Part shown: in pieces, positions 5,582-54,167 of the stretch | Layout of the letters: each line of letters opens with the position of its first letter | How positions within the stretch are numbered: the first letter of the stretch is position 1 | Origin: Bradyrhizobium sp. AUGA SZCCT0158 | Lineage (GTDB): Bacteria; Pseudomonadota; Alphaproteobacteria; Rhizobiales; Xanthobacteraceae | Assembly (NCBI RefSeq): GCF_018130065.1 | Contig: NZ_JAFCME010000004.1 | Span: 1-64,000, forward strand | Length of the DNA: 64,000 bases | Direction: 5' to 3' | Notes under the pieces: generated by a model | What the model was told of the DNA's origin: nothing | What the model saw: the letters and a program-made list of their open reading frames with translations, nothing else | Database searches by the model: none | Program-made: the position numbers and the translations under genes

Positions 5582-6306
5582 TTCCCCGGATACAGATGCA
5601 AATAAGATGGATCGAATTCAGCCAACTTCTCCAGTTCCGGAGGGTCGACCAGGCGGAAATTCGTTCTTTGAACCTCAATCAGACCCTCTCTTCGAAGCTG
5701 CTGCAGTACTCTGTTGACATGCACAGTCGAAAGACCCAGGCAGTCGCCTAGATCGGCTTGGGTAACGGGCAACTCGAATTCCAACTCCCGCGCACGACCA
5801 ATAGCGTTAAGCCTTCGATGGAGTTCGAGCAGCAGGTGCGCCATTCGAGCATCCGCAGATCTACGACCCAGACTCAGGAGCCATTCTCTGAATATCGCAG
5901 CATCGATCAGTGTTTCTCTCCAGAGGGCGGCAGCAACGTTAGGGCGCTCCCTGTTCAGCCCCATCACCGCGGCATGGGGTATAAATCCCAGCGTGCAGGG
6001 GGTTAGTGTCGTAAGATCGTGATCCATGACCTTCAGATGAAGGCTTTGGAGATCCGGAACCTCGCCGGGAATGTGAATGGAAAGAACCTGGCGCTGGCCT
6101 TCGACGGTCGTTTTCGAGCGAAAGGCAAAACCTTCCCCGATCAAACAACACTCGTGGGGACGCTGACCATCGGACACGATGGCTTCCCTCGCCTTGAACT
6201 CGCGTTGGTGTATGGGCAGCCGTCGGAGCGCCTCGATGTCTTCCTCATCGAGAAAGTTGGAGACGGTGAGTTTTGTTATCAACGCAGCCGCTAGATGTGC
6301 CGTCAT
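5578..6306 (-). CDS. Crp/Fnr-family transcriptional regulator
   Basis: 242 residues. The N-terminal cyclic-nucleotide-binding-like beta barrel spans about residues 15-120. There is no FNR-type cysteine cluster, so oxygen sensing through an Fe-S cluster is unlikely. The C-terminal winged helix contains LPVTQADLGDCLGLSTVHVN and RVLQQLRREGLIEVQ. This resembles the short Crp/Fnr regulators that are abundant in Bradyrhizobium. The ligand is unknown. A candidate EcfG-type promoter (GGAAC 6391-6387, N16, TGTT 6370-6367) lies about 60 bases upstream, which would place it in the general stress regulon. Confidence 0.8.
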   Translation of the reverse strand: MTAHLAAALITKLTVSNFLDEEDIEALRRLPIHQREFKAREAIVSDGQRPHECCLIGEGFAFRSKTTVEGQRQVLSIHIPGEVPDLQSLHLKVMDHDLTTLTPCTLGFIPHAAVMGLNRERPNVAAALWRETLIDAAIFREWLLSLGRRSADARMAHLLLELHRRLNAIGRARELEFELPVTQADLGDCLGLSTVHVNRVLQQLRREGLIEVQRTNFRLVDPPELEKLAEFDPSYLHLYPGN

Positions 6307-52378: not shown

Positions 52379-52564
52379 TTACGGCCTCGGACCGTAGCTG
52401 CTGACCTTGCCGTTGATGTCGAAGGTGAAGGTCAATCCGAGGAACGACAATTGACCGCCGCGGGCGTCGATCACGTCGGGGTTCTTGGTACCGGGCGTCC
52501 ACTTCATGCCGCCGCTCACGGCGTCGAGTTCGATTGCGTTGAGTTCGCGATTGTCGGTGGTCAT
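52379..52564 (-). CDS. Short peptide with a bacteriocin-type double-glycine leader
   Basis: 61 residues from ATG 52564 (GGAG 6 bases upstream). MTTDNRELNAIELDAVSGGM has the LDAVSGG leader end typical of double-glycine secretion signals, cut after GG by C39 peptidases. The mature 42 residues (KWTPGTKNPDVIDARGGQLS, then FLGLTFTFDINGKVSSYGPR P) are beta-rich, without cysteines. No C39 peptidase/ABC exporter lies in the window. A Crp-type palindrome is at 52638-52653. Confidence 0.65.
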   Translation of the reverse strand: MTTDNRELNAIELDAVSGGMKWTPGTKNPDVIDARGGQLSFLGLTFTFDINGKVSSYGPRP

Positions 52565-52637
52565 GTCAGTCTCCATTCATTGGTGGCAAAAGCCACTTGC
52601 GATGGTGATGGAGTAACCACAGCAGCCGGTCAGCGAC

Positions 52638-52653
52638 TGTGACCGACGTCACA
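52638..52653. promoter_or_regulatory. TGTGA-N6-TCACA palindrome upstream of the double-glycine peptide gene
   Basis: TGTGA (52638-52642), CCGACG, TCACA (52649-52653): perfect Crp-type operator, 74 bases upstream of ATG 52564. The same element precedes the second peptide gene at nearly the same distance. Confidence 0.65.
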
Positions 52654-52772
52654 ATGCCGGCCGCCCCGATGGCGCGCGCCGCAAATCCGTAAAGTTCGAT
52701 TCAATGCGCCGTTAACGCGCTAAGGGAACCTTACGGCCTCACCTTCAAGTTGGTGATCTGCTGATCCAACGG

Positions 52773-53156
52773 ATGTCACCCGTGACGATGGATGCTCTTA
52801 AGCCAAAGGTGGTGCGCGAACCCCGCCGGCAACTGCACAAGCAGCCGGCCTGGATGACGGTCGACGATGGCCTGACCAACCGCGAATGCTTCGTGCTCGA
52901 TGTATCGCCGGGCGGCGCCAGGATCGTGACCGATGTCGCGATCGATGTCCGCGACAAGTTTGGATTGGCGCTGGTGCGCGATCGCCCAAAACACCAGTCC
53001 TGCGAAGTCGTCTGGCGCCGCGGCAAGACCTACGGCGTCAAGTTTTTGATCGCCGGCAAAGCAGGCGCAGGGCCGATCAACGATCTTTCTGCCGTAGAGC
53101 CCCACGCGCAGGCGGAGCTGTTCGATGCAGCTCAGCGCGTGAAGGCGGAAGCCTGA
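52773..53156 (+). CDS. PilZ-domain protein
   Basis: 127 residues. REPRRQLHKQPAWMTVDDGL contains the RxxxR-like c-di-GMP arm, followed by FVLDVSPGGARIVTDVAIDV (D/NxSxxG), then VWRRGKTYGVKFL. Such proteins bind c-di-GMP and act as adaptors. The first R is R19/R20 and the second motif is intact, so binding is plausible. Divergent from the leader-peptide gene, sharing the upstream region with the Crp-type palindrome. Confidence 0.78.
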   Translation: MSPVTMDALKPKVVREPRRQLHKQPAWMTVDDGLTNRECFVLDVSPGGARIVTDVAIDVRDKFGLALVRDRPKHQSCEVVWRRGKTYGVKFLIAGKAGAGPINDLSAVEPHAQAELFDAAQRVKAEA

Positions 53157-53173
53157 CCCGCCTTGCGGACCTT

Positions 53174-53213
53174 CGTCATTCCCCGATGCGCAATTGCGCA
53201 TCGGGGAATGACG
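53174..53213. repeat. Perfect 40-base palindrome
   Basis: 20-base arms with the centre GCGCAATTGCGC. Arm begins CGTCATTCCCCGATGCGCAA. Extended relatives at 54775 and 54882 share TGCGCAATTGCGCA. Likely a mobile intergenic hairpin; it may also terminate the PilZ transcript. Confidence 0.75.
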
Positions 53214-53317
53214 GAAGCTGATTTCCGGCCCAAGGTGCGAAATCCTGCCACGCGCAAAACGAAGGCCCGACACTTTGGTTGCCGGGCCTCCGCGTCGCGT
53301 CGCTCTCGCGAGCGAGC

Positions 53318-53638
53318 CTATTTTTTCTTGGTGGCGCTGCCCGTGGTCTGCTGACCCGGCGCCTGTTCCGATGCGCCCGGTGCCGTCGATTTCTTGGCAG
53401 CCTTCATCTTGTGACCGGGCGCGTATTCCGATGCGCCCGGTGCCGTCGATTTCTTGGCAGCCTTCATCTTGTGACCCGGCGCGTATTCCGACGCACCCGG
53501 AGCCGTTGATTTCTTGGCACCCTGCATCTGATGGCCCGGTGAGCTATCCGATGCGCCAGGTGATTTGGTTCCGGATTGCGCAAAGGCGGACGAAGCTAAC
53601 GCGAGCGACGCCGCGACGATCAGGGATTTCTTGAACAT
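53318..53638 (-). CDS. Secreted protein with 20-residue tandem repeats
   Basis: 106 residues. Signal peptide MFKKSLIVAASLALASSAFA. The mature chain consists of four imperfect 20-residue repeats of the type KKSTAPGASEYAPGHKMKAA (60 bases each, the middle two nearly identical in DNA). Rich in Pro, Gly, Ser, Lys, so intrinsically disordered and basic. His and Met occur once per repeat (GHKMK). Function unknown. Confidence 0.7.
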   Translation of the reverse strand: MFKKSLIVAASLALASSAFAQSGTKSPGASDSSPGHQMQGAKKSTAPGASEYAPGHKMKAAKKSTAPGASEYAPGHKMKAAKKSTAPGASEQAPGQQTTGSATKKK

Positions 53639-53893
53639 CGTGTTTCTCCTGCTGGCTATCGGCAATAAATGCGCGGTGCGCGCGCACGTTCCACTTTTTC
53701 CCGAATGAATGTTTCCGGGATGAAGAAATAATTTTCCGGCAAGGTTGATGAACGGATGTTTATCTCTTGCGCAAACGCTTAGCGTTTGTCGCAATCCATG
53801 AGACGGAGAACTCCTGAAAGCGTAGCCCGGATGAGCTGCCGGGTCGCGGCAACGCGCGCCCGATGACAGGCACATCCGTGACGTCAGCCAGCC
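53639..53893. other. Intergenic, nothing recognised
   Basis: 255 bases; upstream region of the repeat-protein gene. Confidence 0.3.
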
Positions 53894-54073
53894 TCAGCAA
53901 ATGTTCCTGGTGGAGGTCTTCATCATCCAGGGAAAGTAATTTTCCTTGAGCCATTCGATGGTGGCCCGATCGATACGCGGCTTGCCGCCCGACACGGCGT
54001 CCAATTCCGCAGCCGTGAATTCGACGGCGTTGATTTCCTGCGTCTGCTTTCTTCCCAATTTCGGAGCGCTCAT
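53894..54073 (-). CDS. Short peptide with a bacteriocin-type double-glycine leader (second)
   Basis: 59 residues from ATG 54073, 5 bases after AAGGAGGG. MSAPKLGRKQTQEINAVEFT AAELDAVSGG is a leader ending in GG; the mature peptide KPRIDRATIEWLKENYFPWM MKTSTRNIC has one Cys at the very end. The leader ends in the same LDAVSGG block as the peptide at 52379. A perfect TGTGA-N6-TCACA lies 79 bases upstream of the start. No maturation gene is adjacent. Confidence 0.68.
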   Translation of the reverse strand: MSAPKLGRKQTQEINAVEFTAAELDAVSGGKPRIDRATIEWLKENYFPWMMKTSTRNIC

Positions 54074-54151
54074 GTTTCCCTCCTTGGTGAGCAGGGGACC
54101 ATCCCCTCGGGGGCTCGGTCGTGGAAATAGGCGGCCAGAGCGGTGTTTGGC

Positions 54152-54167
54152 TGTGACTGGCATCACA
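54152..54167. promoter_or_regulatory. TGTGA-N6-TCACA palindrome upstream of the second leader-peptide gene
   Basis: TGTGA (54152-54156), CTGGCA, TCACA (54163-54167), flanked by the same CTGTGAC...GTCACAWTG-type context as the site at 52638. Confidence 0.65.

Follow-up and report, generated by a model that had tools for sequence, protein, structure and literature searches.

Described systems and the peptide genes of the window

Double-glycine peptides of Gram-negative bacteria have often been sought beside their exporter, according to the account in PMC3140520. Here we analyse two such peptides, pep1 and pep2, encoded in a 64-kb stretch of Bradyrhizobium sp. AUGA SZCCT0158 (the window; C34:1-64000 of a 7.35 Mb genome), each behind a CRP-type operator. 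Judged from sequence, they look like part of one coordinated secreted-peptide set, encoded by about 55 dispersed genes, whose products a single transporter probably cleaves and exports. That this set is a cyclic-nucleotide-activated regulon of bacteriocin-like peptides with one exporter appears quite likely. Most of its genes are short and far from the exporter.

The exporter is a full member of the NHLP/NHLM systems by all three NCBI models, and the leaders end in GG as in those systems; unlike there, most genes here are dispersed over the genome, each behind a site of its own. Neither pep1 nor pep2 matches the nitrile hydratase or Nif11 leaders of NHLP/N11P precursors (NCBIfam and Pfam, E<=1). 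Class II double-glycine bacteriocins and TIGR01847 leaders resemble the present set in Leu-12, Leu-7, Val-4 and Gly-Gly, in the small body and in the C39 ABC exporter. Such bacteriocins are under pheromone control; in contrast, control here would be of the CRP type, and pep1 and pep2 have no profile match over the cut-off.

The Cdz system of Caulobacter (CdzC/CdzD) is likewise alphaproteobacterial, and its small bacteriocins are described as type I-exported (PMC5380434). The glycine-rich body of one gene of the set, C23:224060, recalls the glycine-zipper protein CdzC of that description (PMC5380434). As presented there, Cdz comprises a single cluster that includes an immunity gene and is induced in stationary phase (PMC5380434), unlike the roughly 55 dispersed genes with common operators. 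Prochlorosins (ProcM/SyncM, Prochlorococcus and Synechococcus) are reported as many precursors with one shared machine (PMC9872173, PMC10783134). They differ in being Nif11-family lanthipeptides modified by one enzyme, whereas only 10 of 56 bodies here contain cysteine. No modification enzyme was found among the exporter-locus proteins scanned, a search that did not extend to the rest of the genome. Finally, the Clr regulon of Sinorhizobium (S.) meliloti is similar in that eight promoters here match the Clr consensus and a Clr-like protein with the same helix is encoded near the exporter; it differs in that the parts of PMC10127613 on Clr targets do not describe them as exported double-glycine peptides.

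The exporter, the leader type and CRP promoters are each already known. Their combination (dozens of dispersed double-glycine genes, two class II cyclic-nucleotide-type operators and one exporter) was absent from the open-licence PMC papers listed in our searches. Nor did those listings show a double-glycine regulon under CRP control in Bradyrhizobium. Zones of a bacteriocin-like kind have been described for this genus, in an account that leaves the responsible genes unassigned (PMC4520892). The common operator provides an independent route to the peptide genes, and it recovered two that the leader search had missed. With a likely signal (a cyclic nucleotide) and an exporter named, secretion, regulation and killing become directly testable in laboratory strains of Bradyrhizobium.

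Leader genes and operators in the window and the genome

Both leader-peptide genes proposed in an earlier note on this DNA are present as open reading frames (ORFs) on the minus strand. The note credited each with a perfect palindrome: both palindromes are there, that of pep2 being perfect in its 5-bp arms and not at the sixth base. Their distance from the start codon holds, with 73 nt from site edge to ATG for pep1 and 78 nt for pep2. The similarity it saw in the flanking DNA is weak but real, since across the set the site is followed on the coding strand by G (29/37), then C (20/37). The mature bodies are unrelated, and the common leader end is ELDAVSGG, one residue longer than its LDAVSGG. 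The window holds exactly two perfect TGTGA-N6-TCACA matches, the pep1 and pep2 operators, against a chance expectation of 0.01; two perfect sites in 64 kb are far beyond chance.

Across the genome this perfect pattern occurs 26 times, and the reversed-pattern control 0 times. Ten leader genes stand behind nine of these sites, one of which is shared by the divergent pair at C26:25350. With the refined consensus YGTGAYNNNNRTCACR the number of sites is 40 (control, 0), and 25 of these precede leader genes: 23 were matched to known leader genes by script, and two more, C4:3123 and C45:187116, were found from the operator side only.

From the leader side, a profile built on ten peptides gave 44 matches and a leader-only profile 65. 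We examined 61 of the latter (four were not passed on); removing five without a start codon and two false positives left 54 double-glycine genes whose start is usable. Thirty-seven of them have, 56-102 nt before the start, a CRP-type site that departs from the pattern at no more than 2 positions; in 25 it stands at 72-80 nt. Eight others carry a dyad of a second type, TGTYMCC..GGAACA (Clr-type), at 78-88 nt, and 45 of the 54 thus have an operator of either class. Eight genes lie behind another same-strand leader gene, seven of them with gaps of 4-208 nt, and C56:173234 has a degraded CRP-type site (3 mismatches, 77 nt).

When the distance is set to 50-110 nt, the CRP-type site (at most 2 mismatches) is found before 38 of 54 leader genes and 5 of 388 background ORFs, the background being what lies upstream of the other ORFs in these loci. 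The value of 5 in 388 is if anything too high, because some loci were fetched for holding sites. A resampled-sequence control gave about 2.3%. The leaders, about 20-30 aa long, follow the double-glycine rule, with hydrophobic residues at -12, -7 and -4 and GG at -2/-1. Among 42 leaders, L-12 occurs in 34, L-7 in 40, V-4 in 36 and GG in all 42, the last count being partly due to selection with the profile or motif.

The earlier note suggested one promoter module driving diverse exported peptides and proposed genome searches for the leader and the operator. Both searches, leader-first and operator-first, support such a module. The two operator classes, the class II promoter geometry and the conserved pep1 body family described below go beyond that note.

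An island at C9:73.2-78.0 kb (L064:3202-7962) holds eight double-glycine peptide genes by eye, one of which (L064:7795-7962) was missed by the profile; no modification enzyme was recognised in its ORF list. A family of bodies with an LNPQPLPP motif has two genes in this genome (C5:90819, C29:47311) and relatives in G190 C35, G099 C115, G012 C123 and L287, all six genes having a CRP-type site within 2 mismatches. At C7:54809 (L302:1010), a single CRP-type dyad lies between two divergent secreted-looking genes, 77 nt from each ATG, with TAGGGT and CACATC at the -10 places.

Promoter geometry and candidate regulators

When the CRP-type promoters are aligned on the dyad, a YA step is found at +37/+38 in 74% of 38, other offsets having a mean of 8%. 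In the Clr-type promoters, CATTNTCC occupies the same place as the CRP-class -10 in 8 of 8. With the -10 hexamer starting at -12, the dyad centre falls at -41.5 in both classes, as a matter of position only. A class II CRP dyad is centred at -41.5. By this positional measure, the CRP-type and Clr-type leader promoters are of class II geometry, the arrangement described as a site overlapping -35 (PMC5449483). It is difficult to account for a fixed spacing from dyad to -10, combined with a varying distance to the ATG, unless the dyad is where activation comes from.

The second dyad class matches the S. meliloti Clr consensus as given in PMC10127613, HGTYHCNNNNGRWACA, in seven promoters fully and in one with one mismatch, in either orientation. 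A Clr-like protein is encoded at C67:239748. Its best PDB match is 7pza (E 7.8e-44), the structure of Clr (PMC10127613), and it has in common with Clr the SRPK(I/V)N helix, whose residues are described as contacting DNA in Clr (PMC10127613). Its gene lies about 4.5 kb away from those of the exporter, and next after it comes a CHASE2 cyclase. This protein is the best candidate activator of the Clr class. The gene of the Clr-like regulator is preceded by a FecR-like gene, some 400 bp in front of which lies a perfect Clr-type palindrome, TGTTCCCTGGGGAACA (L160:4095-4110); behind this palindrome no leader peptide was seen.

For the TGTGA class, the best candidate is the protein at C1:582965, most like M. 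tuberculosis Crp. Its closest PDB entries are 3i54, 3d0s and 3mzh (E 8.6e-40 to 2e-39), the last being M. tuberculosis Crp (3MZH; PMC10127613). The motif of that Crp is described as resembling the E. coli CRP motif (PMC4117774), and Bradyrhizobium CRP homologues are reported to group with Actinobacteria (PMC5449483). A second candidate of this class, C42:25739, has an R-E-x-x-x-R helix (by eye).

A single complete exporter

As the earlier note remarked, the window has no C39 domain match; the four in the genome, in three proteins, are on contigs C67 and C47. The note expected export to rely on a system elsewhere, and a complete NHLP-type C39 system is found at C67:244.5-250.9 kb. It comprises HlyD, a peptidase-ABC protein and a second ABC protein, encoded by overlapping or adjoining ORFs of the same strand (L061:4500-10892). 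The system is over the NCBI cut-offs for TIGR03794, TIGR03796 and TIGR03797, with 1060 bits for TIGR03796 (cut-off 853.3). By eye, it has the catalytic Cys47 in an ECG motif and the His at NHF; among the C39 transporters of the genome, only this NHLP-type protein has the catalytic cysteine. The HlyB-like (C67:197 kb) and LssB-like (C47) transporters, which by eye have no cysteine at the catalytic position, were set aside as exporters.

One leader peptide gene, C67:244315, adjoins the exporter and has its own dyad, CGTGATGCCAATCACG, with 2 mismatches. No leader gene was recognised behind another nearby dyad, C67:251800. Divergent from the HlyD gene, a 203-aa protein is encoded at L061:11121-11732 (C67:251120-251731). 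It has no Pfam match, and all 20 other loci of the genus have a relative next to the NHLP exporter, which makes it a candidate unknown exporter component.

Distribution in other genomes

We compared 31 genomes of the genus, our own included. Leaders (E<=0.001) are present in 10 of 11 exporter-positive and in 1 of 20 exporter-negative genomes. Their numbers are uneven: 41 in G000, 31 in G012, at least 18 in G236 and 7 or fewer in the others examined. In 21 other genomes we looked 40-130 nt upstream of 52 leaders: 44 have a site of the CRP type and 2 one of the Clr type. The corresponding numbers are 18 and 3 for 23 more leaders of G012, and 9 and 1 for the ten leaders fetched from G236. Of 20 exporter stretches of other genomes (up to 20 kb), 16 contain one or more leader peptides with a site. 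The leader motif picked out 33 peptides in the stretches, 26 of them sited; the reversed sequence yields no such peptide. A cyclic-nucleotide/patatin protein occurs in 3 of the 20 stretches. The CHASE2 cyclase and the Clr-like gene, present there only in G012, were rejected as a fixed part of the exporter locus.

The nearest named relative of the exporter in the plasmid collection is that of Bradyrhizobium sp. CB82 (71.8% identity). Next to the exporter, its plasmid pCB82_1 encodes five leader peptides, with CGTGATTTCTCTCACA at 100-103 nt in every case; the one annotated record calls all of them 'hypothetical protein'. Two of the pCB82_1 peptides beside the exporter, L294 and L299, are tandem, near-identical double-glycine peptides with Gln/Asn-rich, curlin-like bodies.

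Outside the genus, a CRP-type site was found with none of ten leader matches (in 8 of 397 order-level genomes), and one of the ten has a Clr-type match with one mismatch. A scan of named genomes gave a single locus, in Acetobacter sacchari (L110). Set against the results within the genus, the lack of CRP-type sites in these ten makes the module look genus-specific. We infer a direction of change: the module looks as if it began linked to the exporter and expanded in a subclade. A more ambitious version, in which a small exporter-linked locus of one Bradyrhizobium clade became a cyclic-nucleotide-controlled combinatorial secretome (about 55 dispersed promoter-leader cassettes, about 44 unrelated bodies, two CRP-family receptors and one exporter) whose peptides a single second messenger would release together as a cocktail, has slightly less for it than against it.

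Homologues of pep1 occur in 15 other genomes of the genus (265 searched); none was matched in the plasmid search. In five genomes (G054, G084, G099, G157 and G183) the homologue is 2.2-3.2 kb from an exporter gene, with a CRP-type site in G054 and G099. The family counts 18 members, after one row with stops and one leader-only row were removed from 20, and 13 of them have a CRP-type site. Among 14 aligned bodies eight positions are invariant, those of V-x-D-A-R-G-G included; the alignment omits G235 and G236 (identical to pep1), G084 (a near-duplicate) and G114 (motif VIDTRGG). By this alignment, the pep1 body is itself a conserved family. Its AlphaFold model is poor (mean predicted local distance difference test score, pLDDT, 65.8; predicted template modelling score, pTM, 0.34), with a hint of three strands, and a PDB search with it gave no match at E<=0.001; for these two reasons we make no claim on its fold.

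The second peptide, pep2, is nearly private to this genome. It shares 50% identity over 46 residues with a G157 peptide that has no site, and has weak similarity to a paralogue in its own genome at C9:76527. Neither pep1 nor pep2 has a Pfam or NCBIfam match over the cut-off; the best models below it are, for pep1, one of a phage tail fibre (E 0.1) and, for pep2, that of the CTB bacteriocin (E 0.049).

Proposed mechanism and alternative readings

We now propose that pep1 and pep2 belong to a genome-wide regulon of short peptides with double-glycine leaders. Most units would have their own class II promoter, with a CRP-type or, in eight genes, a Clr-type dyad at -41.5. A CRP-family activator, bound to a cyclic nucleotide, would bind these dyads and switch on transcription of the genes together. 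The single catalytically complete NHLP-type C39 exporter would then cleave the leader after GG and export the bodies of about 30 aa. The likeliest role of these bodies would be that of bacteriocin-like peptides of class II, unmodified. The sequence itself shows the leaders, the operators with their spacing, the exporter, and the joint occurrence of these elements; the identity of the binding protein, activation, cleavage, export and function belong to the proposal.

Several observations weigh against this proposal. At the level of promoters, 15 of the 40 consensus sites have no recognised leader gene downstream. Some of them precede ordinary-looking secreted-protein genes (by eye; e.g. the C7:54809 divergent pair), and the regulator therefore probably has further targets. 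A YA step is also found at offset +49 in 45% of promoters, the next best value, where it would lie near the transcription start. One of the eight genes behind another leader gene, C1:30998, overlaps the preceding gene and has no convincing start. The binding protein is a candidate in a genome with 31 PF13545 matches, where C42:25739 and C1:582965 are both CRP-like proteins with a suitable helix.

Comparison with other genomes adds further points of this kind. Two of them, G017 and G009, break the co-occurrence of exporter and leaders, and only 11 of 16 further exporter-positive genomes have leader matches at the strict cut-off, so that the association is strong but not complete at E<=0.001. 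The CRP-type site is missing in 5 of 18 members of the pep1 family, and in 3 of the 5 that adjoin an exporter (G084, G157 and G183). For pep1, pN/pS (the ratio of nonsynonymous to synonymous changes) is 0.14, 0.39 and 1.08 against three close relatives, with few changes. As pep2 is almost without relatives, its standing as a protein rests on leader, operator and ribosome-binding site. The ORF lists for the window peptides and the C9 cluster contain no recognised immunity gene, though small ORFs there could hide one.

The last point bears on what the peptides do. The 56 bodies (median 32 aa) sort into 44 groups between which no similarity was detected (E<=0.001); that of C23:224060 is a glycine-rich, zipper-like chain, and two peptides of other genomes have below-cut-off Pfam matches to lactococcin G-beta (E 0.034) and Bacteriocin_IIc (E 0.0038). 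This diversity, the zipper-like body and the below-cut-off matches favour unmodified bacteriocin-like peptides. Given the regulon and its exporter, bacteriocin-like action is the reading we would choose by a narrow preference, as somewhat better than even.

The same regulon and exporter could instead deliver signals (to kin, plant or community) or components of the surface or matrix. We regard this as a substantial possibility, although the less probable one. The pep1 body is conserved across species, when a weapon under arms-race selection would usually vary, and no recognised immunity gene accompanies the window peptides; together these two facts leave room for signals or structural peptides. 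The curlin-like tandem bodies of L294 and L299 point the same way. Against signals, so many dissimilar groups of bodies are a better fit to weapons, as are the zipper-like body of C23:224060 and the below-cut-off bacteriocin matches, that of pep2 to the CTB model among them.

It is unlikely that the dyads are instead FNR/FixK-type or repressor-type sites, placing the peptides under oxygen control or repression rather than cyclic-nucleotide activation. The genome does encode many CRP/FNR-family regulators, one of them inside the window (5623-5850). However, the half site here is TGTGA, that of FNR-type sites being TTGAT; the dyad stands at the position of a class II activator, with a matching -10 in 74%; and one side of the exporter carries the Clr-like gene, the CHASE2 cyclase and a cyclic-nucleotide-binding protein.

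That the ORFs are chance frames in repetitive intergenic DNA, their leader similarity a translated repeat, is very improbable: many leader ORFs do lie in short intergenic regions and 3 of the 61 leader matches examined, of the SELDAVTGAR kind, look like such repeats. Against it, most of the 54 genes have leader, start codon, operator and -10 in a constant order but different bodies, and the leader is therefore not carried by a DNA repeat. In 20 loci the real sequence gives 33 such peptides and the reversed one 0, and pep1 homologues align over most of the body.

Features of the window

The elements of the two genes are collected in Table 1. The predicted -10 region of pep1 is one base away from the commonest YA position.

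Table 1. Elements of the pep1 and pep2 genes, with positions in the window.
Feature	Position	Strand	Description	Basis
pep1 double-glycine precursor	52379..52564	-	61 aa	ORF, leader profile match and homologues
pep1 parts			leader ending ELDAVSGG; mature body of 42 aa with VIDARGG	
pep1 probable ribosome-binding site	52570..52574	-	GGAGA	read from sequence
pep1 predicted -10 region	52611..52616	-	TTACTC, 29.5 bp from dyad centre	fixed-spacing profile, 37 promoters
pep1 CRP-type operator	52638..52653	-	TGTGACGTCGGTCACA (coding strand)	
pep2 double-glycine precursor	53894..54073	-	59 aa	ORF and leader profile match; weak relatives only
pep2 parts			leader ending ELDAVSGG; mature body of 29 aa	
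pep2 ribosome-binding site	54079..54084	-	AGGAGG	read from sequence
pep2 predicted -10 region	54125..54130	-	TATTTC	fixed-spacing profile
pep2 CRP-type operator	54152..54167	-	TGTGATGCCAGTCACA (coding strand)	

Between pep1 and pep2, positions 53318-53649 of the window encode, on the minus strand, a small secreted-looking protein made of KKSTAPGASEYAPGHKMKAA repeats.

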